Assembly (NCBI RefSeq): GCF_902833145.1
Contig: NZ_CADFEN010000002.1
Location: 310,001-374,000, forward strand
From: Burkholderia sp. BCC0506
GTDB taxonomy: Bacteria; Pseudomonadota; Gammaproteobacteria; Burkholderiales; Burkholderiaceae
Length of the DNA stretch: 64,000 nt
Direction of reading: 5' to 3'
The position numbers and the translations under genes were made by a program. Numbering within the stretch: position 1 is the stretch's first letter; every line of letters begins with the position of its first letter. Under the pieces are notes generated by a model. It was not told the DNA's origin and made no database searches. It saw only the letters and a program-made list of their open reading frames with translations. Positions 7,649 to 25,758 of the stretch are shown here, in pieces.

Positions 7649-8185
7649 CTACTCGCGCTTTTGCGGGCGGCCGCCCATATCAACTGCGGCAGCGAGGTCT
7701 GCGAAGTCGATGTAGCTGTGTAGGCTGCAACTTCCCAGCACGACCGCGCACTGGAGAAAGAGCGAGAGTGGAATCGTCCCTGTCGAGAACTGGGACGCGA
7801 GCAGCTGCTTTGTCGTGGCAACTCCGATATCCCCGAGAAGGGCGACGAGCCGGTCCGGCGTAACCCATGGCCGTTGCCCCAATTCCGCCATAATCACTGC
7901 CTGTGCTCGCTCCTCCCACGTCCCGCGGAGCGCCAACGGTCCGAGCCAAAGGCGTGGAGCAAGGGCTTCCGTTACATGAATGATTTGTAGCAGAAGAGTG
8001 AGCTTTGCCGTACCGCGAGCGAGGCGCGAGATAAGTGCACGTTCTGTTTCGCGGACCCCTATGGCGGTTAGCTCTTCGGCCAATCCGGCATAGGTCAGTC
8101 CTTTTCGCTCAAGCGCGACCCGGATGACGCGGGAGGCTAGTCCTCCCCACACCGCATCTTCCTCGCTTACAAGAGTCCTTGTCAT
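7649..8185 (-). CDS. Tandem DUF6471-like protein
   Basis: 178 residues from the ATG at 8185; an upstream GTG at 8269 would add 28 residues and neither start has a good ribosome-binding site. Two copies of the same roughly 60-residue unit are visible. The first reads RVIRVALERKGLTYAGLAEEL and continues to an SRLARGTAKL-like segment and LLLQIIH. The second starts near RAQAVIMAELGQRPWVTPD and contains LLGDIGV, a STGTIPLSLFLQC segment and a similar end. This helix-turn-helix-like unit is what I recall as DUF6471, normally present once. A DNA-binding or regulatory role is plausible but unproven. A palindrome and direct repeats lie just upstream. Confidence 0.65.
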   Translation of the reverse strand: MTRTLVSEEDAVWGGLASRVIRVALERKGLTYAGLAEELTAIGVRETERALISRLARGTAKLTLLLQIIHVTEALAPRLWLGPLALRGTWEERAQAVIMAELGQRPWVTPDRLVALLGDIGVATTKQLLASQFSTGTIPLSLFLQCAVVLGSCSLHSYIDFADLAAAVDMGGRPQKRE

Positions 8186-9103: not shown

Positions 9104-10435
9104 ATGCAACTGACCATCGATGACACGGGCGTCCTGAATAGCGCTCGACTCGCGGACATCCCAGACCAGTCCAATCCTTGCGCGCGGTTTGCCAGGGACG
9201 TGACCACGCTTGACGACGGTTACGACGCAATGGAATGCATCCCCTCGGAGCGGCTGGGGGAGCCCGGTATCGGCGTAACCGATTTTCAGATTCCTACGTT
9301 CGAGCATGCCCGATTCGCAGTCGAACTTTTTGCCTCGGCTACCGAAAGCGCGACAGAGCGCAACTTGAACTCTGAAGAATTCAGACGCAAGACGGTCTCC
9401 GCGGCCATGTACATAAACCATTCGGCCGACCGGCATGGTCATGCATTGGAGGGTGCGCCAATTACCATCGCCAACGCTGGGCCGCGCGGCCATGTTGTCG
9501 TTATTCCAGCCGGGATGAGCCAGCAGGCGTTTCGAAAAGCCATCCAACGCATGTTTGGTACGGAATACGAAAAAATTGATATTGCGGTCCCGCAGGGTGG
9601 GACGATTCGATACACGCGGCTGCCATCTCTGACCGTGCCGTTCCCGGAAAACGGTGCGCCGCGCTCGTTTGGAAAGCTCTTCCTCCGCTACTTCGACGAC
9701 GCTATGAAGATGACTCATTCAGCGCGTCTTCGCGGCCCATTTCATCGCGGGGAAGAGGAGGTCGGGCCAGCCTTGCAGGCCTATGCGATTGCAGCAAACA
9801 TCGGCGTACTGATTGTGGAGCAAATCAATACGCGCAACGCAAGCACGAAGCTGGCCAAAAGCTTGTGGGCAATCTTGGCGCGTTTCACCGCAGACACCGG
9901 TATTCCGATTGTTTGCCTTGTAACGCCCGGGGCGGCTGCGGCACTCTCCGAGCAGAGCACCGCTGCTGCGCTCCTCGCCGGGAACACTTGGTACAACATT
10001 GCGTCCGCAGAACCGCACTCCGCCCAGTGGTCCCTGACGTGCGAGTATCTCTACACGACGTATCTGACGGGCTGTATGGGCTTTGGCGAACCGGAATGGT
10101 TCGCTGAAACGATGTGGTGGTTGACTTGTGGACTCAGCGAGCTTGCGGTCAAGGCGTGCGTTCATATCGTCAGTGTTAGCCGGAAAGAGGATTTCAGTCG
10201 ACCTGGCAAGGACGAATTTGTGAAGTTGGCAAAGAATGCCCTTGCCCTTGAATGGCCACATCTGCGTGCAATCAGGAAACTGCGCGAAGGAGGCTCATTC
10301 ACTTCAGCCAGCATTCGTCGTCACGGTGACTGGCTTCCTGTCGAACCGATGATGCAGTCGGTGCCGGGACTGGACGAGACGAATCCAGCATTCCGAATCA
10401 CCGAGGTGTCGATGCCGGGGGCCAACCATGCTTAG
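9104..10435 (+). CDS. tnsC: TnsC-like AAA+ transposition regulator with ablated Walker motifs
   Basis: 443 residues from the ATG at 9104; 47 further codons upstream in frame look non-coding. Identity as TnsC rests on the segment before the second motif (PENGAPRSFGKLFLRYFDDA, like the conserved DGS.....NFF.ALD of TnsC), the helical motif LSELAVKACVHIV near the C-terminus (TnsC has D/ELAVKLF), and its place in a tns operon. The P-loop position reads VIPAGMSQQA (133-142), with no GKS/T. The Walker B position reads VLIVEQIN (235-242) instead of a DE pair, so the catalytic Glu is Gln. No other GxxxxGK[ST] occurs. TnsC normally needs ATP to join the target selector to TnsAB. The stop overlaps the next start by 8 bp. 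Confidence 0.72.
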   Translation: MQLTIDDTGVLNSARLADIPDQSNPCARFARDVTTLDDGYDAMECIPSERLGEPGIGVTDFQIPTFEHARFAVELFASATESATERNLNSEEFRRKTVSAAMYINHSADRHGHALEGAPITIANAGPRGHVVVIPAGMSQQAFRKAIQRMFGTEYEKIDIAVPQGGTIRYTRLPSLTVPFPENGAPRSFGKLFLRYFDDAMKMTHSARLRGPFHRGEEEVGPALQAYAIAANIGVLIVEQINTRNASTKLAKSLWAILARFTADTGIPIVCLVTPGAAAALSEQSTAAALLAGNTWYNIASAEPHSAQWSLTCEYLYTTYLTGCMGFGEPEWFAETMWWLTCGLSELAVKACVHIVSVSRKEDFSRPGKDEFVKLAKNALALEWPHLRAIRKLREGGSFTSASIRRHGDWLPVEPMMQSVPGLDETNPAFRITEVSMPGANHA

Positions 10436-11870
10436 CACCTATGTCTCCGCTACCGCCGGTGAAACAGCAACGAGTCTACTTGAGGCCGCTGCTTTTGCTA
10501 CTGGCTCTGCAGCGGCTCGCCATCTTTCTGCGCGTCGCTATCGTCGTTGCGCACCACTAGTCGGGACCCTGCCGTCGCGGGCGAAGGCGTTCTGTGACGC
10601 AACGGAACAAGCATACGGCACACCCGAAGAAGTCGTGTCAAAGTTTTCGCTCGCACCCTTGTATTCCCGGGGCATGAATCCGCTAATGCAACGGAAGCTA
10701 GTCGCCCAGTTGGTGGATGGCTCGCATTCCCGGACTTGCTGTCCTCGGCTGCGGCCCTTCATCCAATGCGGAAATCGCCACGGCCTACAGTGTCCCGAAT
10801 GCGCGATGCTTGCCACCAAGACGCATGGACGCCGGATTTCGTATTGCATGCACTGCATTGATTTCGTTAGTCGCTGTCCGATTCATGACTGCAAGCTGGT
10901 CAGTGACGACGATTGCAGCTCCCTCGAAGAGATGCTCGCGTCCAACGCCGGCGTCAATGCGACGCGCAATGCAACTCGCTACGCGCAGTTGGCTCATGCC
11001 ATGGCGCAGGGTTGTTCATCGGAGTACACCAGGGAAAGTGTACGTCGGCGACTACGCGAGAAACAGTACCTCTCCGAATCCGGACGGTGCCGACTGGATT
11101 CGCTTCGAAGCGCATTCGCCGGGGTGTTTTCGGACGGCTTCGAAGACATTCGTCTTAACGAACTGTTGGCGAATACAGATGTTGCGGCGACCAGCGTATA
11201 TCTGTTGAACCGCGAGGCGAGAGCCATCCATCCGGTGTTCTTGATACTCCTTGAGTGGCTGTCCGTGGAGTTGGACACACTGCCTATCAGGTCACATGCA
11301 ATAAGCCCGGATATAAGCAATGCAGAACCTGCTATGGATGTACGTGACGCAAAACGAACTGCGTGGTTGCGACATCAAATGCAGTGCGCAGGCATAGGGC
11401 GCAATGAGATTCGGCGTCGGAAGCCAGCTCTTTGGGTCTGGTTATATCGATATGACCGTAATTGGCTCGCCGCCCATCAGGTCGCCCCTCGGCACCCCCA
11501 CGGTCGGAAGACCCGCGCAATGCCGTCGGCGCCGTTCGCACGCGCAATCGTTTCAGCTGAGCGTCCCGTTCACCGTAGCGCGATTGGCCGCGAGCCGCTT
11601 CCGTCGGCATACCAGATGCGTCTCGCCTATGGAATGAATCAATACCTGTTCGACCGCGCAACAGAAGCGTTCGATGGCGCGGGAAAAGCTGCGCAGTTGC
11701 CCGCACGTCGTGAGGTCTTCATCGCTCGCCGACTAGAACGAGCCATTTCGGTGCTTGCGGCGAAGGGAATGGCCACTGATGCGGCGTCGGTCGCTCGCGA
11801 AGCCAGATTGCGGATTTCGACCGTCGTGCGCTATCAACGCGAGGAGTCCGCTAGATATGCAAGCGAATGA
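10428..11870 (+). CDS. tniQ: TniQ/TnsD family target-site selection protein (first copy)
   Basis: 480 residues, about the length of Tn7 TnsD (508). The zinc-binding region has CPEC at 122-125, then YCMHC and CPIH at 150-153, as in TniQ proteins. Further on, TAWLRHQMQCAGIGRNEIRR followed by PALWVWLYRYDRNWL matches the TnsD repeat that ends in a WLYRHDRDWL-like motif. In Tn7, TnsD binds the 3' end of glmS and brings in TnsC and TnsAB. The gene overlaps tnsC by 8 bp and the next tniQ by 14 bp. Which of the two TniQ proteins reads glmS cannot be told from sequence alone; the TnsD-type repeat makes this one the better candidate. Confidence 0.85.
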   Translation: MLSTYVSATAGETATSLLEAAAFATGSAAARHLSARRYRRCAPLVGTLPSRAKAFCDATEQAYGTPEEVVSKFSLAPLYSRGMNPLMQRKLVAQLVDGSHSRTCCPRLRPFIQCGNRHGLQCPECAMLATKTHGRRISYCMHCIDFVSRCPIHDCKLVSDDDCSSLEEMLASNAGVNATRNATRYAQLAHAMAQGCSSEYTRESVRRRLREKQYLSESGRCRLDSLRSAFAGVFSDGFEDIRLNELLANTDVAATSVYLLNREARAIHPVFLILLEWLSVELDTLPIRSHAISPDISNAEPAMDVRDAKRTAWLRHQMQCAGIGRNEIRRRKPALWVWLYRYDRNWLAAHQVAPRHPHGRKTRAMPSAPFARAIVSAERPVHRSAIGREPLPSAYQMRLAYGMNQYLFDRATEAFDGAGKAAQLPARREVFIARRLERAISVLAAKGMATDAASVAREARLRISTVVRYQREESARYASE

Positions 11871-13401
11871 ATCCCTCGCGTCCATGGTGATGACCTCCAT
11901 TGCCGACGGCGAGCACTTTCCCCTCTACTTCGCGCGACTTCGCAGCTTCGCTTGCGTTGACTTGACACCAAGTGGGCTGTTGTTCCCAAGCGGTATGCGC
12001 AAGCTTATCGACCAGTTTGGAGACCTGGTTGGACCACTCGATAAGGTTCTCGGTGGCAACATGCTTTTGCCGTTATTCAATCGCGCATTGCCCCCCGACG
12101 ACCAAGACATTCTCAAAGCCCACTGTCTTGACACGCCGAAACTGGGCTTGCCGGCCGTAGTCGGGCTCAATGGGCCGCGCTCTGGCTGGGCGCGCGCGGC
12201 CATTGCTTGCTGTCCGATGTGTATCAAGGATGATATCGCGCCGTGCGGCAATCCTTATTGGAGACGGGACCACCTGGTGCCTGGCGTTCTCTTCTGTGGT
12301 CGCCATCACCTGCCGTTGCACGTCCGGTGTGAGACGTGTAGCGACTTCAGGACCTATCCGAATTGGACAACTCACCCGGGCAGGAATTGTGGCTGTGGGC
12401 TCAGGCCTCAGCGCCGAGCGACCACGTTGACCGACGCCCAAACAGCATCGGAAATTGAGGTGGCGAAGGCCGCGTCGAGACTGCTGCAACCTGACTACAT
12501 GCCGCAACTCAACCACGTGGGTTTTGCAACCCTCGTTGGAGAATCCGCCCGTCGGCTTGGACTGACGCGGGACCGTGGCGTTAACTGGCGTCGCACCGAA
12601 GAATATTTTAAAGAGACCCCGCACGCGCACCTAATCTCTCGGACATCGCTTCTGGTCGGACGCGGCTACGTCGGGACCATTCTGCGTGGGAAGGGCGTAT
12701 ACCGGAACCCGATGCATAACGTCGCATTGCTGATTGCGCTCTACGGAACGTGGGATGCAGTTGAAGGTGCCTGCTCGGCTATGAAATCTGAGGAGCATCA
12801 GGCTGCACCATCAACGAAAACTACGAACGTGAGTGCTCGAAGCAATTACTCGAGATTCAGGACATACCGCTCCCGATGGATGGACAAACACCACGACCGG
12901 TGGTTCGAGCACTATGCCGGGATGTATCGGGACGTTCGAACGAAGCATCCCGACGATACCTTTTCGCAATTGATGCGTCGTCTGCCTGCTACCGCAGCTC
13001 AGTTTCTCACTCGCACAAAGCTGATTGCAGCTGGCGAAGACGTACCTCCGTCGCGCGCCGGCGCCTACGACTCTGCGTTGGACCGGTCATACGCAGAGCA
13101 CATACGTTCGACGGCAAAGCGACTCTTTGAACAGGGTTTCCCTAGGCGAGTAACACGGCATGCCCTGATACGCGGACATCGCATGGACATCGCGTGGTAT
13201 CAAATCCGCGACCGACTGCCGCTCGCAAAACTGGCACTCGCGGAGAATGAGGAGTGCGTACCAGCGTATAGACGCCGCCGCCTGCTGATGCTCTCCAATT
13301 CCGCGACCGTCTTGACGATGCCGCGACTGACCAAAGAGCAAATCGACGAAATGGATGACATGACCGTCCGAAAATTCCTCCGACAAGGAGCCGCACGATG
13401 A
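11857..13401 (+). CDS. tniQ: TniQ/TnsD family target-site selection protein (second copy)
   Basis: 514 residues from the ATG at 11857, which has GAGGAG upstream and overlaps the previous gene by 14 bp; a longer frame from 11755 would lie almost wholly inside the first tniQ. The N-terminal half has the TniQ zinc motif: CCPMC at 118-122, then YWRRDHLVPGVLFC, H150 and CETC at 158-161. The C-terminal half (about 290-514) is basic and probably binds DNA. It ends with ATGA overlapping tnsA. A second full-length target selector suggests a second class of target besides glmS, by analogy with elements that carry two TniQ proteins. Confidence 0.87.
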   Translation: MQANESLASMVMTSIADGEHFPLYFARLRSFACVDLTPSGLLFPSGMRKLIDQFGDLVGPLDKVLGGNMLLPLFNRALPPDDQDILKAHCLDTPKLGLPAVVGLNGPRSGWARAAIACCPMCIKDDIAPCGNPYWRRDHLVPGVLFCGRHHLPLHVRCETCSDFRTYPNWTTHPGRNCGCGLRPQRRATTLTDAQTASEIEVAKAASRLLQPDYMPQLNHVGFATLVGESARRLGLTRDRGVNWRRTEEYFKETPHAHLISRTSLLVGRGYVGTILRGKGVYRNPMHNVALLIALYGTWDAVEGACSAMKSEEHQAAPSTKTTNVSARSNYSRFRTYRSRWMDKHHDRWFEHYAGMYRDVRTKHPDDTFSQLMRRLPATAAQFLTRTKLIAAGEDVPPSRAGAYDSALDRSYAEHIRSTAKRLFEQGFPRRVTRHALIRGHRMDIAWYQIRDRLPLAKLALAENEECVPAYRRRRLLMLSNSATVLTMPRLTKEQIDEMDDMTVRKFLRQGAAR

Positions 13402-14333: not shown

Positions 14334-14461
14334 ACCCGGTCAGTCACGTAACCCCACAAGTCGCCGAGGCCACCGTTTACCTGGCCGTGGCCTCGCTCGT
14401 CCTCCGATTCTAGAAACACGTTAATGGCGTCGTTTTGCATACCTATTTGATAGAGGCAACA

Positions 14462-16810
14462 ATGCAACCCGATTTTTCCGATTTCATCAAGCCGCCTGTA
14501 CCGAGCCCTGAGCTGCTTGCGCAACTGCTCGAATTTCAGTCTGCTACCTGGCCCCACCAGCTCGGTCGGTTTACCCCTTTCAAGCGGAAGCGCGATGGCG
14601 ATAACGTAATTTACCGGTCCGTTGCCTGGAACCCATACGACAAATCGCTCCACGTACTGCGGGCCGCTTCTGGGACGCCCAAGGATGTCGGCTACTGGGA
14701 AACGTGGCATGAGAACGCGAAAGACAAGCCGCTCGACGACATCTATCTGGTCGACGACACTATCATGCCCGTCGAGATGAAAGTGACGCGCGACAAACTG
14801 AGACCGAGCGCCGTGAAGGGGATGGATAAGCGCATGCGGATTGTGCAGGCGTTCGCGTATCTGGACCCGGTGGGAAAAGGGAGTCCTTCGGATTTCATTT
14901 TCAACGACCTGGTGGTGGTGAGCGACGGTACTCGCTCAGCGGCGCTGAAACGCGTAGTCGCTGCACTTGCTCAGCCGCATGGATTCCAGACCGCTGTCAG
15001 AAAGTTGTTCCACAAGTTTGTGCACAACGGCGGCCATCCGAACGCGCTCGCGAAACATACGTTCCGGCAGGGGCATCCCAAAATGTCGCGCGTGGGAATA
15101 AACACGAAAAAGCCGGGGCCGAAGTCCGCGAGTGAAGCCCGCATTGCATCAAGGAACAAGGCGCTTGGTACAGACAGTCACGCACGGCGTCATCCCGTCA
15201 GGCCGAGCGACGAAATCAAATTTATTCGGACGTTGGAACAACGTTGGGTGCAGTTACGTTGCACCATACGTGAGGCTTATGACGGCATGGTTCTCGTGGA
15301 CTATCCGAAATGGCCGAAGCGCCTCATTCCTAGCCTTCGGTCGTTCCGTTATCACGCGACGAAGCGGCTCATCCCCGACCTTGACCTCAAGCGCCTTCGC
15401 GACGGAAAGCGGCTATCAGCGCAGTACAACGACGCCCGCGCCGGTCAGGCCAGCCACCTCACACAAGGGCTCATCGAGATTCTCGATGTCGACGGCTTCG
15501 TGGCTAAGATTGGCGTAGCTGCTCGAGTTGGCGGCCGGATTGAAAGTATTCACATGACCGTGATGTTCGCCGTCTCGCGCCCGTCCGGCGCAATCCTCGG
15601 TTACGAGCTTGCCATCAGGGGGGAGAATGCGGAGGCTTTTCGCCGGTGCATCGCATCCGTCTTTCTGCCTAAGGCCGAGCGTGCGCTGGAACTCGGGCTA
15701 ACGTCGACCAAAGGGCTACTTCACGGCAACGTCGATGCGATTTTCGTAGATAACGGAGCTGGCGCTTCAGAACAAGTCATCGTAGCTGCTTGCGACGAAA
15801 TGGGTCTCATGAGGATGCTGCCACCGCCCGGTCGCGGGGACCTCAAGGGCGTTGGAGAAGGCGTCAACAGTTTGATGGTTCTGATGATGCTCGGCGAAGA
15901 CAGCGCATACACCCGAGCGACCGACCACCTATCCAAAGAGATACGGCGACAGAGGGCAAAGAATGCGCCTATCCCCTTGGAGCAATTTGAACGCCTGCTG
16001 CTCAAGGCAATCCAGCACTACAACCTGTTCACGAACAAAAAGCGCTTGAGGTCGTACGAGATGCGAAAGGCCCGCATTGGCGTGACCCCGGCGGCCATCT
16101 TCAAATACACCCAGGAGCAACGCCGCGGCGACGCCCGTCGCCAGCTCACACCCCGGGAGGTGTTCGAGCGGTTTGTCCCGTGGCAGACCCGGATATGTCG
16201 GCGAGGTCTGGTGAACTTCATGTCGATGCGGTACAGCTCCGATGAACTCGTTGAGCATTTCAATGAGCATGTGCGGCAGCTTGGAAAGCGCGAACCTTTA
16301 CCCGTGCGAGTGAAACGCTTGGACGGACATCCACTCATCCTACTCTGGCAAAAGTCTGATGGTGCGACGTCTGTGCTGAACCTCGTCGAAGAGGATGCCC
16401 GCAGCATTGGCTCGGTAACCTGGAAAGGACTGGAGTTTCTCAACGCTGACGATTCATGGTGCGAGGAAAAGCTCAAGCCTGGCCGCCGAGCGAGTCGCAA
16501 CCGGGTTACGGCCAGGGTTCACGCGAGTGCCGTCAGAGCGGAGGGCGTTCGCGCCGGAAACGAAATGGGTGGGCTCGAAGGCGTCACCGGGAGAAGCGCA
16601 AGGGCGAACGCCGAAGCGAAGCAAAACGCCCGCCGGGGCGCTGCCCAGGCAACGGCTTACGGCATCGCGGATGCTGGGGTTGAAGTTCATAGGACGGAGC
16701 GCGTGCAGCTTACAGCGCCCTCTTCGGTCGCCGAGTCGTCCTACTTACGTCGGCTTGCGCAGCGTCTTTCCGCGCGGAAGTCGAATCCGGATGCGCCTGA
16801 GCAGCGCTGA
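14462..16810 (+). CDS. tnsB: TnsB-like DDE transposase
   Basis: 782 residues from the ATG at 14462 (AGAGG about 6 bases before it). A longer frame from a TTG at 14435 lacks support. The N-terminal 330 residues are basic and should bind the transposon ends. The RNase H-like core has D342 in EILDVDGF, D430 in AIFVDNGAG and E466 in KGVGEGVNS; the last two are 36 residues apart, as in the DDE family. The GENAEAFRR stretch and the C-terminal beta-barrel-like part (about 590-680) follow the TnsB plan. The last 80 residues are basic and low-complexity. There is a 128-bp gap after tnsA, unlike the overlaps upstream, so tnsB may also have its own promoter. Confidence 0.87.
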   Translation: MQPDFSDFIKPPVPSPELLAQLLEFQSATWPHQLGRFTPFKRKRDGDNVIYRSVAWNPYDKSLHVLRAASGTPKDVGYWETWHENAKDKPLDDIYLVDDTIMPVEMKVTRDKLRPSAVKGMDKRMRIVQAFAYLDPVGKGSPSDFIFNDLVVVSDGTRSAALKRVVAALAQPHGFQTAVRKLFHKFVHNGGHPNALAKHTFRQGHPKMSRVGINTKKPGPKSASEARIASRNKALGTDSHARRHPVRPSDEIKFIRTLEQRWVQLRCTIREAYDGMVLVDYPKWPKRLIPSLRSFRYHATKRLIPDLDLKRLRDGKRLSAQYNDARAGQASHLTQGLIEILDVDGFVAKIGVAARVGGRIESIHMTVMFAVSRPSGAILGYELAIRGENAEAFRRCIASVFLPKAERALELGLTSTKGLLHGNVDAIFVDNGAGASEQVIVAACDEMGLMRMLPPPGRGDLKGVGEGVNSLMVLMMLGEDSAYTRATDHLSKEIRRQRAKNAPIPLEQFERLLLKAIQHYNLFTNKKRLRSYEMRKARIGVTPAAIFKYTQEQRRGDARRQLTPREVFERFVPWQTRICRRGLVNFMSMRYSSDELVEHFNEHVRQLGKREPLPVRVKRLDGHPLILLWQKSDGATSVLNLVEEDARSIGSVTWKGLEFLNADDSWCEEKLKPGRRASRNRVTARVHASAVRAEGVRAGNEMGGLEGVTGRSARANAEAKQNARRGAAQATAYGIADAGVEVHRTERVQLTAPSSVAESSYLRRLAQRLSARKSNPDAPEQR

Positions 16811-17674: not shown

Positions 17675-19411
17675 TCAAGAATCGCGTTTTGCTGACACCT
17701 GTTGCTGGATGCGCTCTCGGACATCGTCCAACATGGGGCGAATCATTAGCGCCACTGTGTTGAACTCGTCGCTGCGCAGAAGGCCTTGCTGCGTTTCAAA
17801 CATCTGCACGTCAAACCTATCGACAGTCGCTTCGGCCGGCAACCGCTCCATCGCGATGAACAACTGCTGCCTTTCACCGATATGGTCTGCGGCGATATTG
17901 AACATCCGTCCGAGGTTCGGGTCGTCTTGGCCCGACTGCTGCAATGTGTCGATGATGACGGGGAGCAGCGGTAGGTCGCCTTTCTCGAAGTTGCACGCTA
18001 TCAGCGCGAGATGAACCGCGAGAATGGCGCGGCGCCCCGAGCTACCACCTGCCTTCGGACGCTTCCCAATCCCGGTGTCTTCGATGCGTTCGGATGTGGG
18101 AATGTTGAGCAAGTCAGACAAGCGTCGCAGCTCGGCGCTGTAGAACTTGCTCACATCAGCTTTGCGATGCTTGTCGTCATAGCGCTTCACCGCATCTTCA
18201 GCTGCTGCTTGCTCTTTCCTCAGCGCGGCGACTTCGATACCGAGGGTCGACTCCACTTTCGAGAATGCCTCGTCGAGCGTGCGCTTGCTATGAGCGCTCA
18301 GCACCTCATCAAGCCGGGTGCGCGAGCGGCCCGCAGACAGTGCCTGCTCGTACTTCTCGACGTGGCGTTCGATATTACGAAGCGTCTGACGTAACTCCGA
18401 CTCCTTCAATCTGCACGCATCGAGGTTGTCGCTCAATTGTGCGACGAGTTCGTTCATTTCTTCGAGGTCCTGCCCGAGGGACAGCCGTGCATGGAACGAC
18501 GTGGTGTGCAGAACGCCGCAGGTCGGGCACTCAATCTGGGTGTCGTCGGGTACTGCACTGAGGTACTCGAAGTCCCCGCCGAGGTCACGCTGCGCGGCAG
18601 TTGCCAGCTTCAGCTTGGACTCGAGGCTCTGGCGCTCGCCCGTGACCGCGATGAGGCGCTCGCGTGCCTTCATCTGTTCGGCCTGCGCCGCCTGGGCCGC
18701 TTTTGCCAGCTCGACAAGCTCCGCCCGAAACGCACTTATATCGAGCGAGGGAGTCGTCTTGGGAAGCGATTCGCGAACGCGCAGGAATGCCTCCTTCTGC
18801 GCGGTGAGGTCAGCTTCCTTCGTGCGGAAGCGTCGGTCAATCTCATCCTTTTTCTGCTTCGCAATCAGATAGGCACTCGGACGCAACCCGGTTACCGTTG
18901 CAAACACAGGCTCTTTCCAGCGAGAAAACTGGCCAAGGTTGTCGTAGGTCGTCCAGTCAGCGCCCCAGCTACCATCCTGGTCAACGTAGAACGGCAACGA
19001 CATATAGTCCAGCCCGGCCTGGCCGTACGCCGCGCCACCTGGCCGCGGCAGCCTCAGATGGAAGCCGAAAAGCTTCGCCGTTCGTTCGACCCATTCGCTG
19101 TTTCTGTCGGTCGCGAACAGCAGGCGCTTCTGCGACGAGAACAGTCCCATCGCACGTCCCTTGCGTAGGGCGAAGTAGGTTTCATCCGCGAAGGAGAACT
19201 CGAGCAAGCCGACTGTAGCCGGGTCCCAGTTGCCGGATACCAACGACTGCGGCTCGCATCCGAGGCTCCAATAAAGGCTCTTGCAGATGCGTGACTTGCC
19301 GGTGTGGTTAGGTCCTAGCAGCAGAGTCCTTTTCCCGAAGCTCAGTTCGCGCCCGCGCTTGTCTCTCTCGGATGCTAGCCAGAGCTTCTTGAAGGTCACG
19401 AGCCGGGTCAC
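17675..19411 (-). CDS. SMC/Rad50-like ATPase of a two-gene defence-type module
   Basis: 578 residues. Walker A is GPNHTGKS at 33-40. A long coiled coil is interrupted by a zinc-hook-like CPTCG at 295-299, as in Rad50. The ABC signature position reads GGSSGRRAILA (455-465) and Walker B reads LPVIIDTLQQ (483-492), where the usual Glu after Asp is Thr. These are marks of the SMC/RecN-like ATPases that act with an effector nuclease in Lamassu (LmuB) and ABC-three-component systems. The GTG start overlaps the stop of the DUF4297 gene (GTGA), so they are translationally coupled. Sensing of unusual DNA and release of the nuclease is the inferred role. Confidence 0.75.
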   Translation of the reverse strand: MTRLVTFKKLWLASERDKRGRELSFGKRTLLLGPNHTGKSRICKSLYWSLGCEPQSLVSGNWDPATVGLLEFSFADETYFALRKGRAMGLFSSQKRLLFATDRNSEWVERTAKLFGFHLRLPRPGGAAYGQAGLDYMSLPFYVDQDGSWGADWTTYDNLGQFSRWKEPVFATVTGLRPSAYLIAKQKKDEIDRRFRTKEADLTAQKEAFLRVRESLPKTTPSLDISAFRAELVELAKAAQAAQAEQMKARERLIAVTGERQSLESKLKLATAAQRDLGGDFEYLSAVPDDTQIECPTCGVLHTTSFHARLSLGQDLEEMNELVAQLSDNLDACRLKESELRQTLRNIERHVEKYEQALSAGRSRTRLDEVLSAHSKRTLDEAFSKVESTLGIEVAALRKEQAAAEDAVKRYDDKHRKADVSKFYSAELRRLSDLLNIPTSERIEDTGIGKRPKAGGSSGRRAILAVHLALIACNFEKGDLPLLPVIIDTLQQSGQDDPNLGRMFNIAADHIGERQQLFIAMERLPAEATVDRFDVQMFETQQGLLRSDEFNTVALMIRPMLDDVRERIQQQVSAKRDS

Positions 19412-20652
19412 TTTTTAACCTCTTGTTGCGCACCAGGCGCAGCAGTGAATATAAGGATGTCGGTTGCATTTTTGATAATCAGAAGAGCGAGGCAATGGAG
19501 GTATCCTAAGGTATAGCTACCGCATAGTTCCGGGCTGGCTTTTTCCGCATCGTAGACTATCGCCTCCATCTGGTCGCCGAGCAGCCGGAAGCGTTTTTGC
19601 GCCTGCTTGAACGAGTCGCGCGCTTTTGCCAACGCAATGCATATAGCACGGAGTTCGATGTTCGTCCGGTCCGTCAGGTCGGCGCAAACGCGAACCAGCT
19701 CGGACTTTACATCTTCCAGAATTTCGTAGTCGTGTACTTCAGCGTCGAGTCGCGCGAAGCAATTTTTCAGGACGTCATGGCTGCTGTCCTGCTTGAAGTT
19801 CTCCACCTGCACGAGGATGTCTGCGACCTGGCTGCGCGAAACACCGCGCTTCTTGAGCTGGGTGAACGTCTTTGCGTAGCTGTTCTTGCTTCCGACCTGG
19901 GCAAACTCGTTGGCTACCATCCTGGCGCCGAGCACCGGTCGTTTCATCTGGAACGGGAGCTTCTTCTTTTCAGCGAGCTCATCCAGCGTTCCGGCGACGA
20001 AACGATGAGGTTCGTCGAGCGGCAGCCCAGTCCGTATCAGTCGGAAGTCGTCGAGCACGATGGAATCCTCATCGACGTCGAGTTCCTTCGCGAGCGCTGC
20101 CCGAAGAGTTGCCAACTCGCTGTCGCACAGGTCCAAGAGATTGGCATCATGCGTCATGCGAGGCGTTTCATCCTCCTCAAGAGGGAGTTTGAAACCTACG
20201 TTCGACGCGAACCACAGGGCGGTTGGATGCGGATGAAAACAGTGTCGACGCATGACTAGCTTGGCCATGGTAGACATCGTCTTTGCCCCGGATTTCGTCG
20301 TGCCGGTAGCGAGCAGGTCGCGCAAAGTCCAGATGCCGTGCTGCTCGTTCTTTTTGACCTGATGGAATTCGGCTCGTGAGGGCTGCTCGGGAGAATCGAC
20401 GATGGCTACGTCTTCCTTGAACTCAAGGATGATAAGGTAGTCGTCCATCACACCGAAGCGCTCGATGGCCAAGAGCGCCGCGTACCAGTGTTGGTACGTG
20501 AAGCCCAAACTGGCGTTCACGCCCGTTTTCTCGTCGCTTGCCAAGTCTCTCATGAGGGAAACGAGGTCTGGTTGCGAACCTAAGCGCCCAGAACTTGCAC
20601 CTGTTTGCCTCAACGCTCGGCCATGCCCCGACGCGCGAGTTTGCCGTCTCAC
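19408..20652 (-). CDS. DUF4297 (Cap4-like) nuclease-domain protein, partner of the SMC ATPase
   Basis: 414 residues from a GTG at 20652 with AAGGGG upstream; an internal ATG at 20553 has no such site. After a basic leader, residues about 43-115 contain the DUF4297 pattern: TGVNASLGFTYQHWYAALL, then LEFKEDVAIVD and AEFHQVKKNEQHG, giving the acidic residues and QVK of a PD-(D/E)xK dsDNA endonuclease like Cap4. The C-terminal 250 residues are helical and unrecognised; they could carry the ATPase-binding function that other systems place in a middle subunit. First gene of the pair. A Lamassu-like LmuA role is likely, but a separate LmuC is not seen. Confidence 0.72.
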   Translation of the reverse strand: MRRQTRASGHGRALRQTGASSGRLGSQPDLVSLMRDLASDEKTGVNASLGFTYQHWYAALLAIERFGVMDDYLIILEFKEDVAIVDSPEQPSRAEFHQVKKNEQHGIWTLRDLLATGTTKSGAKTMSTMAKLVMRRHCFHPHPTALWFASNVGFKLPLEEDETPRMTHDANLLDLCDSELATLRAALAKELDVDEDSIVLDDFRLIRTGLPLDEPHRFVAGTLDELAEKKKLPFQMKRPVLGARMVANEFAQVGSKNSYAKTFTQLKKRGVSRSQVADILVQVENFKQDSSHDVLKNCFARLDAEVHDYEILEDVKSELVRVCADLTDRTNIELRAICIALAKARDSFKQAQKRFRLLGDQMEAIVYDAEKASPELCGSYTLGYLHCLALLIIKNATDILIFTAAPGAQQEVKK

Positions 20653-20794
20653 ACGTATATCCCCTTGCTAATACTTGATTATGAGTCTTCTTGAGGGCTG
20701 CTCCCCCGTTCGCTGGAGACTAGCACACGGTGATTAACTTGTCCCATGTTCAGCACAATTTTGTGACGCAGGTGGTGAAGCCTCTGGGCCGTCG

Positions 20795-22075
20795 TCAAAA
20801 ATCACCGTTCCAGAATCCATCGAGTTCAATGTCGGGCTGGAAGTCGAGCGCCCGGAGCGGAATAACTTCGTCCGATTCGGGGGAGCGATAGAAATTCTGT
20901 CGCTCATGAGTGTAGGAAACCGATTGGGTTTTGTAAACGTTCACTTCCCCGTCCGTGAGGGAAACTGGAAGGGCTTGAGGTTCACCGAAATCATCGACCA
21001 TGGCATTCAGGAACAAGACGATATTGGTCCCGCCGCGCCGTTGTGTCGACTGGAACATGATGCCATCGAACGCCGGCTTCGCAAGGTGGGAGAGGAACTC
21101 GGCCATCGTTTGGGTGATGAGATAGTCCGACTCGCGTCCGGGGGTGACCGGTTGAGCAATCTGCTGATGTAATATGCGTAGAAACTGACGTCGAGCGCGC
21201 TGTTTGCTGAAGTCTGGCTGGAAAAAACTGAGATTCTGGCTGGAACGAGCATTCTCAAGCCGGGCAAAATCGAGGATTCGAAGCTTCCTGTTTGTCGCCA
21301 CTTCAATCAGCACAATGTCGTTTCCGATAGCAGGGCGCATTTCCGACAGGCAGGTATCCCGCTCTAGTGAGCCGTAAAATACAGATACCCCTTCGGCATT
21401 CATTCTCCCCGCGCGTGCGGCTGCCGGCGGAGGTGGGCCAACATGCTTTAAGGGGTCGTTAAGCATCTCCTTGAGCAACGCAGTGCTCGTCACGACGCGG
21501 GCCCGAAAGAGACGTTTGTTTGCAGCCAATCGACGCACGACCGGCACACGACGCCTACCTGGGACGTACATCTTCTCGACGCCTTCGAACAGCTCGGTGA
21601 AAAATTGCCGGGCCTTTTCGCTGAAGAACCTCCTGCGGTGCTTCACGTCCACAAGCGTCTCCTGCCATCTTTCGTGATACTCGATGGGCAGATGCTGGAC
21701 ACGCTCATAACTCTGCATGTCGTCCCAGAATGGTTCTCCTCCGTCCCTCGGGTCGTAGTCGTCCGTCTCAACGACGGCGTCCACAATTTCATCTTCAAAC
21801 TCGAAATATTGTCCCAGAAACTCCTGGACCCAACCGGCCATAGAGTCCCCGAGCTGTCGGTAGTAGATTTTGTCGTTATCGTCGATTTCGGGAACCGACT
21901 GGCCCAATTGAAGATTTTCGCGCATGATGGGCGCAAGGATTTCACCCAATCGTGCAACGCTGATGCCCTCGCGCTCTTCTTCGCAGACTCTACACTCGTT
22001 TAAGACTCCCTCACGATGGACCATCTCGCGAAGGTAAGTATCTTTGAAGCATGCGTAACAGATGTGGTCAGGCAA
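20795..22075 (-). CDS. RES-domain protein with zinc-binding HEPN/RES-type N-terminus
   Basis: 426 residues, from a TTG with GAGGA 7 bases upstream. The N-terminus has CYAC (6-9) and CRVC (28-31), as in proteins with a HEPN/RES N-terminal domain. The C-terminal part is a RES domain: LFRARV at 189-194 gives the Arg, YGSLERDTCLSEMRP at 234-248 gives the conserved Glu (E245), and DGIMFQS near 350 gives the Ser. RES toxins (Xre-RES systems) degrade NAD+. No Xre antitoxin lies beside it, so it may be a self-contained defence or abortive-infection protein. It is divergent from the nuclease gene at 22204. Confidence 0.72.
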   Translation of the reverse strand: MPDHICYACFKDTYLREMVHREGVLNECRVCEEEREGISVARLGEILAPIMRENLQLGQSVPEIDDNDKIYYRQLGDSMAGWVQEFLGQYFEFEDEIVDAVVETDDYDPRDGGEPFWDDMQSYERVQHLPIEYHERWQETLVDVKHRRRFFSEKARQFFTELFEGVEKMYVPGRRRVPVVRRLAANKRLFRARVVTSTALLKEMLNDPLKHVGPPPPAAARAGRMNAEGVSVFYGSLERDTCLSEMRPAIGNDIVLIEVATNRKLRILDFARLENARSSQNLSFFQPDFSKQRARRQFLRILHQQIAQPVTPGRESDYLITQTMAEFLSHLAKPAFDGIMFQSTQRRGGTNIVLFLNAMVDDFGEPQALPVSLTDGEVNVYKTQSVSYTHERQNFYRSPESDEVIPLRALDFQPDIELDGFWNGDF

Positions 22076-23643: not shown

Positions 23644-23928
23644 CAGGTCGGTGACGGGCGTTGGGGCTGAAAGGCCGGAGGGAGCAGCTCGAGCTGACAA
23701 CGAGGCCGAGAACGGGGGCGTTGCTCCTGGGCGATTCGTGAAATCTACAAGGCAATCGCAAAAAAGTGGCGCCACAAAAAGCTCCGGCGTCACTTTGACA
23801 ACAGTTTCAGTTACGCCTTGTTAGGCAAGGCTTGGCAGCACAAAAGACGCTCGTAACCAAACCTGAATCGGGTGTCTGTAACTGGAATTAATGCACCTCA
23901 GCAGGTGATAAGGGAGAAATGATCTCCC
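23644..23928. other. Island/glmS junction region (attTn7-type site)
   Basis: No gene. It lies between the last cargo gene and the glmS stop, where Tn7-family elements insert. An imperfect inverted structure is seen at 23764-23797 (AAGTGGCG ... GGCGTCACTTT on the plus strand), and TGGCGCCACAAAA at 23767 resembles TGGCAGCACAAAA at 23834, which could be transposase-binding repeats. A TGT/ACA terminus with a 5-bp duplication could not be fixed. Confidence 0.5.
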
Positions 23929-23929
23929 T
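23911..23929 (-). terminator. Hairpin just after glmS
   Basis: AGGGAGA and TCTCCCT are separated by AATGA and touch the glmS stop codon. The 7-bp stem has no T-run behind it, so it is only a possible terminator or mRNA end structure. Confidence 0.4.
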
Positions 23930-25758
23930 CACTCCACCGTCACCGATTTCGCCAGATTCCTCGGCTTATCGATATCCGTCCCTCGCGCCAACGCCGCGTG
24001 ATAGGCGAGCAGTTGCATCGGCACCGTATGCAAGATCGGCGACAACGGCCCGTAATACTCGTTTAGCCGAATCACCTCGATCCCCTCACTCGGTACCAAC
24101 CCACAGTCCACATCCGCGAACACGAACAGCCGCCCGTTCCGCGCACTGACCTCATGCATGTTCGATCGGAGCTTTTCAAGCAGCATGTCATTCGGCGCAA
24201 CCGCGATCACCGGCATTTCATTGCTGACGAGCGCCAGCGGCCCGTGCTTCAACTCGCCTGCCGGATACGCTTCCGCATGAATATACGAAATCTCCTTCAT
24301 CTTCAGCGCGCCTTCGAGCGCGATCGGATAGTGCATTCCGCGCCCGAGAAACAGCATGTTGTCACGTCGCGCGAGCAACTCCGACCACGCCATGATCTGC
24401 GGTTCCAACGCGAGCACTTTCGACATTGCATCCGGCAGATGCCGCAGCGCGCGCAGATGTTCCTTCTCTTCATCGTCACTCAACCGCCCGCGCACTTGCG
24501 CCAGTGACAACGTCAGCAGGAACAGGGTAACGAGCTGTGTCGTAAACGCCTTTGTCGAAGCTACGCCGATTTCAATGCCAGCACGCGTCACGAACTGAAG
24601 CGCACATTCGCGCATCAACGCGCTCGTCGCCACGTTGCAGATCGCGAGCGTATGCATCATCCCGCTGCGTTTCGCGACATGCACGGCCCCGAGCACATCG
24701 GCGGTTTCACCGCTCTGCGACACCGCAACCACCAGCGTGCGCGGATTCGGCACGCTGTCGCGATAACGAAACTCGCTGGCAATCTCGACGCTCGCCGGCA
24801 GCTTCGCGATGCTCTCGATCCAGTACTTCGCGGTCAGCGCCGCATGATAGCTGCCGCCGCACGCGAGCAGCAGCACCGAATCGACGTCATTGAACACGCG
24901 CCACGCGCCGTCGCCGAACAGCTCGGGCATGATCGACGACACGTCGAGCAGCGTATCGGCCACGGCCTGTGGCTGCTCGAAGATCTCCTTCTGCATGTAG
25001 TAACGATAGGACCCGAGATCGGCCGCGCCGCTATGCGCGGCGACGCGTTGCACCGCGCGCTCGACGCGCTGGCCGTTTGCGTCGACGATCCAGTAGCGAT
25101 GCAGCTGAATGTCGGCGACGTCGCCGTTCTCGAGGTAGGCGATGCGATCGGTGATACCCGACAGCGCAATCGCATCCGACGCCAGAAAATTCTCGCCGTC
25201 GCCGACCCCGACGACGAGCGGCATCCCGTCGCGTGCGCCGACGATCCGGTGCGGCTCGTCGCGGCACATCACCGCGATCGCATAGCTGCCGCGCAGTCGC
25301 GCGACCGCACGCCGTACCGCGTCGAACAGGTCGCCGTCGTACAAGTGGTCGATCAGGTGCGCGATCGCCTCGCTGTCGGTCTGGCTCGCGAACACATAGC
25401 CGTGCGCCTGCAGTTCCGCGCGCAGTTGGTCGCAGTTCTCGATGATTCCGTTGTGCGACAGCGCGATGCGCGCATTGGCGTCGCTTGGCGAGAAGTGCGG
25501 ATGCGCGTTGAGCGTGACGGGGGCGCCATGCGTGGCCCAGCGCGTATGCGCGATGCCCGTGTAACCGGACAACGCCAGCTCGGCGATCTCGCGCTGCAGG
25601 TTCGCGACACGATCGACGCTGCGGGCGCGCGCCAGCACGCGGTCGCGGTAGACCACGACGCCGCACGAATCGTAGCCGCGGTATTCGAGCCGCTTCAGGC
25701 CGTCGACCAGGTTCGGCAGGATGTCCCGCTGGGCCACCGCCCCGACAATTCCACACAT
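23929..25758 (-). CDS. glmS: Glutamine-fructose-6-phosphate aminotransferase (isomerising)
   Basis: 609 residues, the full usual length. It makes glucosamine-6-phosphate from fructose-6-phosphate and glutamine for cell-wall and LPS amino sugars, in the cytosol. The N-terminal glutaminase starts MCGIVGAV with nucleophile Cys2 and has the RWATHG motif; two SIS sugar-isomerase domains follow (SQSGETAD near 355). The C-terminus ends [11 protein letters not shown], the peptide coded by the DNA that Tn7 TnsD recognises, which explains the island placed directly downstream. It is divergent from an Lrp/AsnC regulator rather than linked to glmU, so it may be one of several glmS copies that Burkholderia can carry. 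Confidence 0.97.

Follow-up and report, generated by a model that had tools for sequence, protein, structure and literature searches.

A lineage of Tn7-like transposons in the order Burkholderiales with a TnsC that lacks the canonical ATP site

TnsC is thought to read the target of Tn7-like transposons by means of an ATP-controlled ring or filament, and the role of ATP in this process is unsettled. The TnsC of Escherichia coli Tn7 is a protein of 555 aa. It forms a seven-member open ring linking TnsD to the transposase (PMC11406308). Loss of the catalytic Glu of TnsC renders Tn7 hyperactive without target selectors, but cripples Tn6677, ShCAST and McCAST (PMC11406308). According to the same 2024 review, some TnsC proteins of type V-K CASTs are by nature without the catalytic Glu or have no typical Walker A motif. 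A TnsC without a canonical ATP site is thus an already known idea, and the first-pass annotation of the locus described here was too broad in stating that known TnsC and TniB proteins need ATP (PMC11406308). TniB of the Tn402/Tn5053-like elements is likewise an AAA+ protein that works with TniQ and a DDE transposase. Elements with two TniQ/TnsD genes, as here, are CMGI-E of Cupriavidus metallidurans (PMC3384475) and those of the Tn7017 type (PMC10293859); loss of the ATP site does not figure in the portions of these two dual-tnsD reports with which we compared our locus, by description only. In the corresponding portion of PMC10293859, sequences with a gap at a Walker position are discarded before its tree.

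The region analysed (hereafter the window) is a stretch of 64 000 nucleotides from Burkholderia sp. BCC0506. Its TnsC has kept the TnsC fold and lost the ATP machinery. It resembles the TnsC of type V-K CASTs in the natural loss of the catalytic Glu, accompanied in some of them too by loss of Walker A (PMC11406308). It differs from E. coli Tn7 TnsC (8glu, 7mbw, 8glw) in lacking the Walker A Lys, the catalytic Glu and the arginine finger and in its length of about 443 aa, and the genes are ordered tnsC-tniQ-tniQ-tnsA-tnsB, instead of tnsABCD(E) as in Tn7. Our preferred reading, to which we assign a probability of roughly 0.65 on the basis of sequence comparison, is that this protein would be a working ATP-free scaffold of a cut-and-paste Tn7-like transposon homing to glmS. 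What appears new is the occurrence of the loss across a whole lineage, as sampled, of tnsA-bearing elements that home to glmS or are related to such elements; a search of the open-access literature, outside which subscription papers and bioRxiv mostly lie, found no paper on this lineage.

The features of the locus are listed in table 1. The tnsC frame starts with ATG and has no internal stops, and its stop is overlapped by 8 bp by the start of the first tniQ. The intact frame, the tight overlap with tniQ and the peptides VIPAGMSQQA and VLIVEQIN, all reported in the first-pass annotation, were found in the sequence as described. The residue assignments are taken from an alignment with intact TnsC proteins, in which Gln140 and Gln141 occupy the Lys and Ser/Thr positions of the Walker A motif GxxxxGK[ST], and Glu239-Gln240 those of the Walker B Asp-Glu; the absence of GK[ST] and the presence of Gln at the catalytic Glu position, proposed by eye, are therefore confirmed. 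Two features come in addition to that annotation: the arginine finger is lost as well (Ala289-Leu290), and tnsC is followed by two TniQ/TnsD genes, not one.

Table 1. Features of the element and of its insertion site. Positions are those of the window unless a contig is named.
Feature	Position	Strand	Basis and remarks
Divergent accessory gene, two DUF6471 domains	7649..8167	-	Pfam PF20075, E 2.3e-30
tnsC, pseudo-ATPase form, 443 aa	9104..10435	+	
Former Walker A, VIPAGMSQQA, residues 133-142	9500..9529	+	alignment; Lys to Gln140, Ser/Thr to Gln141
Former Walker B, VLIVEQIN, residues 235-242	9806..9829	+	alignment; Asp to Glu239, catalytic Glu to Gln240
Former arginine-finger pair	9968..9973	+	alignment; Ala289, Leu290
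tniQ 1, TnsD-like, 480 aa	10428..11870	+	Pfam TnsD PF15978, E 6.6e-15
tniQ 2, 514 aa from ATG	11857..13401	+	Pfam TniQ PF06527, E 6.9e-8 (on longer frame)
tnsA, 311 aa	13398..14333	+	alignment; E115, D162, K183 kept; Pfam TnsA-like N-terminal domain E 0.0014, below cut-off
tnsB, transposase	14462..16810	+	profile homology and alignment; DDE triad kept
Left end, outside the window	C2:294994 = window -15006		
Right end, outer TnsB-type repeat	23878..23902		whole-genome pattern search
5-bp target duplication AGGTG	23903..23907		identical 5 bp left of the left end
glmS, host gene at insertion site	23929..25758	-	

Searches with single sequences are blind in this case: the TnsC of the window has no Pfam match up to E 10 and only chance matches in the PDB, so that profiles were needed to show homology. 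Alignment of a profile of 11 degenerate TnsC proteins with one of 6 intact TnsC proteins by hhalign gave a probability of 99.6 and an E-value of 9.5e-25 over 380 columns, and the 6 intact proteins match Tn7 TnsC at 8.4e-151. The relation spans the N-terminal and AAA+ parts, and the N-terminal TnsC-type motif (N24, P25) is kept. The TnsC fold is also recovered in the predicted structure, an AlphaFold model with mean pLDDT 70.6 built on 5 sequences (the other four models have 36.8 to 56.1), and the possibility of a non-AAA+ protein was rejected by the fold comparison; the initial TnsC assignment is thus borne out by both approaches. The score against Pfam AAA_22 falls stepwise, from 65-90 bits in 3 intact TnsC proteins to 34 in one degenerate TnsC (G571), about 20 in two others (G020 and G357) and 14 in a fourth (G208b), with no match in G341, G208a and G011. 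The C-terminal TnsA-contact segment (PF11426) is present in one intact TnsC (L046) and absent from that of the window. Such an absence would fit a TnsC that no longer takes part in transposition and instead acts for the element in regulation or immunity, a reading that we consider very improbable, given the conserved N-terminal motif and fold, the place of tnsC at the head of the tns operon in all collected elements and the absence of any other TnsC encoded there.

The five genes from tnsC to tnsB are closely packed, and the tns operon within which tnsC had been placed proved to be complete, with tniQ/tnsD, tnsA and tnsB. The tnsB gene of the window has no Pfam match; its triad is D353, D439 and E475, numbered from the TTG at 14435. 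The catalytic residues of TnsA and TnsB were assigned by what we take to be the equivalent residues of Tn7. Among the lineage elements, the DDE triad of TnsB is kept in 15 of 15 and the E-D-K residues of TnsA in 16 of 16.

Relatives were sought in 398 genomes of the same family (15 matched), 399 of the order (8 matched) and 369 of the class (11 matched), the best four candidates per genome being scored. A profile-based scan of genome contigs with one narrow peptide pattern gave 3 loci, and a scan of viral sequences gave none. The collection contains 20 degenerate TnsC proteins from 19 elements, all in the order Burkholderiales and all in an operon starting with tnsC. The order tnsC-tniQ-tniQ-tnsA-tnsB is found in 16 of these elements (tnsB is split in G357 and cut by the end of the stretch in G146); the second tniQ is absent from G327 and from a copy on a Paraburkholderia plasmid (L050), and the G209 operon is cut by the contig end. 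The named hosts are Cupriavidus necator (L033, tnsC at 9923-11260, accompanied by tnsA and tnsB), two Caballeronia and Paraburkholderia sp. 22B1P, and one carrier, G571, belongs to another family of the same order. The operon of G327 (Caballeronia calidae; L025:5690-13913), which has no second tniQ, contains two different degenerate tnsC genes.

None of the 20 degenerate proteins has the catalytic Glu (one has Asp), the acidic pair or the first finger Arg. Walker A Lys is lost in 17 and kept in 3, Ser/Thr is present in 4 and the full GK[ST] in a single protein, that of G571, which keeps GxxxxGKS and the Walker B Asp; Lys occupies the second finger position in 3. In 24 full-length TnsC proteins of other elements, Lys, Ser/Thr and the acidic pair are present in 24 of 24, the catalytic Glu in 22 (Asp in the other 2) and the first finger Arg in 23. 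This comparison set consists of 6 initial proteins, 5 from carrier genomes, 6 from the class search and 7 from the neighbourhoods of DUF6471 genes (see below); it excludes a TnsC fragment of G310 whose frame lacks the Walker A half (L056), and four candidates (L114-L117) which the profile of intact TnsC did not identify as TnsC. The 6 proteins from the class search lie outside the order and keep the motifs in all cases. The lesions seen in the window thus recur in its homologues, and a loss common to 20 of 20 is due neither to chance nor to one bad copy.

The tnsC gene is maintained by selection, as the first-pass annotation had proposed from its frame and overlap. Between the window and a relative from another genus of the same family (G340), dN/dS is 0.160 for tnsC, 0.141 for tnsB, 0.280 for tnsA, and 0.208 and 0.232 for the two tniQ genes. 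That the element is dead and its tnsC decaying, which the motif loss itself and the frame break in the tnsB of G357 could suggest, is hardly credible in view of this purifying selection, the open frame in all 20 collected proteins, the intact active sites of TnsA and TnsB, the element ends with their 5-bp duplication and the sharing of the lesion by the whole lineage. Some copies of the lineage are probably dead, given the tnsB of G357, which is split over two frames (L030:14782-16396). Among the segments of tnsC, dN peaks at 0.221 in that of the former P-loop (residues 126-160), where dS is saturated.

Twelve of the degenerate proteins form one group in a tree (100/100), which we call the core 12. 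In this group Pro135, Pro181, Gly184, Thr274, Trp309, Trp332, Asp409 and some further residues show little or no variation, and the sensor-1 Thr is invariant; the same does not hold for most positions of the nucleotide site. Within Walker A, entropy at the first Gly, second Gly, Lys and Ser/Thr lies between percentiles 31 and 65, and the last Gly is conserved (percentile 8). By this pattern, constraint in the core 12 has moved away from most positions of the nucleotide site. Weak or altered nucleotide binding is conceivable, since the changes are partly conservative: Lys is replaced by Arg in 9 of the 20 proteins, and in 13 of the 20 the position of the Walker B Asp is still acidic, Glu239 of the window included. 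The invariant sensor-1 Thr and the G571 protein, with its GxxxxGKS and Asp, also speak against an ATP-free TnsC. A remodelled pocket, with Arg for Lys and Glu for Asp, might accordingly bind nucleotide without hydrolysing it and lock the clamp in its active state. The three members that keep Lys, one of them with Ser as well, would suit such a protein, and the hyperactivity of Tn7 after loss of the catalytic Glu makes a hydrolysis-dead stage plausible (PMC11406308). We nevertheless regard it as unlikely. In the TnsC of the window both Walker A residues are Gln; within the core 12, conservation across Walker A is poor except at the last Gly, and the finger that senses the nucleotide of the neighbouring subunit has disappeared from all 20 proteins.

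A tree of 32 TnsC proteins, from which the tni rows, L056, L058 and one member of a near-identical pair were left out, has a branch (100/98) that separates the 12 intact proteins from the rest. This split does not establish one clade for the 20. The placement of the long branches of G123, G017 and G571 is unsure. The trees of TnsB and TnsA also separate the operon type with degenerate tnsC from the others. The proteins lacking Lys require at least two changes on the tree (bootstrap range 2-3), so Walker A Lys was probably lost more than once. These repeated losses probably came after those of the catalytic Glu and the finger, which are placed first since no sampled member has either; this order is deduced from the states of living members. 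Such states would suit a stepwise conversion of an AAA+ switch into a nucleotide-free clamp, in which Glu and finger would have been lost before the sampled members parted and Lys later on at least two branches, with transposase and nuclease remaining active and the elements moving, and we judge the chances for and against this scenario to be evenly balanced. If it is true, ATP would be dispensable for target choice in a TnsD-guided transposon.

The element measures 38.9 kb (C2:294994 to 333902, window -15006 to 23902). A search of the whole genome with the pattern of the outer end repeat found two places (0 and 1 mismatches) that are 38.9 kb apart and inverted relative to each other; the reversed pattern, used as a control, gave one match within 3 mismatches. 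The insertion lies just downstream of glmS (attTn7), with 21 bp separating the target duplication from the stop codon of this gene, the 3' part of which is present in all 41 genomes of the genus searched. Of five relatives without the insertion, four have 13 to about 50 bp between the flanks and the fifth (G155) has 0.85 kb. The empty sites lack about 0.9 kb of DNA that here separates the left end from the chromosomal flank (L104, C2:294100-294994).

The TnsC of G340 is 82 per cent identical to that of the window and has lost the same residues, and its element also lies next to glmS. The two elements have end repeats and core in common (79.5% DNA identity over 9.9 kb), and differ in cargo and in the target duplication, AGGAT on both sides in G340 versus AGGTG in the window. 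With the same residues lost and different duplications in two genera, the simplest history is that the element has moved after the loss of its ATP motifs. Not all members of the lineage use this site, since in G011 and G110 the operon lies far from the glmS match that is nearest to the glmS of the window. In G199 (L134/L021/L133), a second lineage member at glmS, end-like repeats in the same orientation are found 39.4 kb apart near this gene (C3:325357 and 364758), and several elements may be nested there. In G118 (L090:3606-3663), only 5 bp separate a right end from a left end beside glmS, and the repeats of the two ends are nearly identical, which looks like the insertion of one element immediately adjacent to another; these adjoining ends, which are not tied to any identified TnsC, could fit poor target immunity.

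The genome of the window has no second Tn7-type TnsC by a search with the profile of intact TnsC, the sole other match being the TniB of a Tn402-like operon. In 15 carrier genomes, a full-length TnsC with intact motifs was found elsewhere in 5 (G327, G020, G571, G104 and G340), only a fragment or a short TniB-like match in 3 (G310, G208 and G000) and no further match in 7, by a search which missed the tnsC of the window itself, so that weak matches can escape it. The five full-length proteins, together with the paired degenerate genes of G327, could point to a mixed ring in which the degenerate TnsC is a subunit requiring an intact TnsC in trans. The ten carriers with no match or only a partial one, and the lone TniB in the genome of the window, make this most doubtful. 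TniB-like proteins keep what the degenerate TnsC has lost, namely GK[ST], Asp-Glu and Arg-Arg (four short TnsC/TniB proteins; for the Tn402-like TniB, L052, the Walker motifs). The neighbours of the Tn402-like tni operon (C19:16258-16737) are genes, named by eye, for a sul-like dihydropteroate synthase and an acetyltransferase-like protein.

The first-pass annotation had left three options, an ATP-independent scaffold, a TnsC supplied elsewhere and a dead element; the last two are disfavoured by the results above, and the comparisons between sequences favour the first. In a scaffold of this kind, the TnsD/TniQ pair would mark the site beside glmS, and TnsC, probably unable to bind ATP, would assemble there without it as a nucleotide-free structural adaptor, then recruit and license TnsA-TnsB. 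Specificity would come from the two TniQ proteins instead of an ATP cycle, and one cost to be expected would be the loss of target immunity. We infer that these elements first went through a stage without ATP hydrolysis, after which most branches also lost ATP binding. Its members form a natural series, with Glu and finger lost throughout and Lys lost in most and kept in three, in which to ask which targeting step needs ATP, and the degenerate protein would be a simpler TnsC to use in structural studies and in integration tools.

The accessory gene with DUF6471 domains adjoins tnsC in all 16 loci compared. It was considered as a sixth component special to the degenerate lineage, being initially absent from all 12 stretches that contain an intact TnsC, half of which (six) measure only about 4 kb. 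A search for DUF6471, with matches in 32 of 150 genomes of the family, gave 15 new neighbourhoods: 2 belong to the degenerate lineage, with the motifs lost, 7 are other tns operons whose TnsC keeps the motifs, which refutes this idea, and 6 contain no tns gene by the profiles used. Members of the domain family thus flank several kinds of tns operon in the family, ordinary ones included (L118-L130). The 2 and 7 TnsC proteins recruited by this marker, out of the 20 and 24 compared, were obtained independently of TnsC similarity. No paper naming DUF6471 was found in the open-access literature; the protein is predicted to be all-helical in its AlphaFold model.

Among 10 proteins in or around the part of the element within the window, no Pfam match to a Cas family was found. 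The cargo at 17675-22075 resembles defence genes: one encoded protein, of 578 aa, starts with a P-loop-like sequence and neighbours a Cap4-type nuclease, and another has a RES domain.
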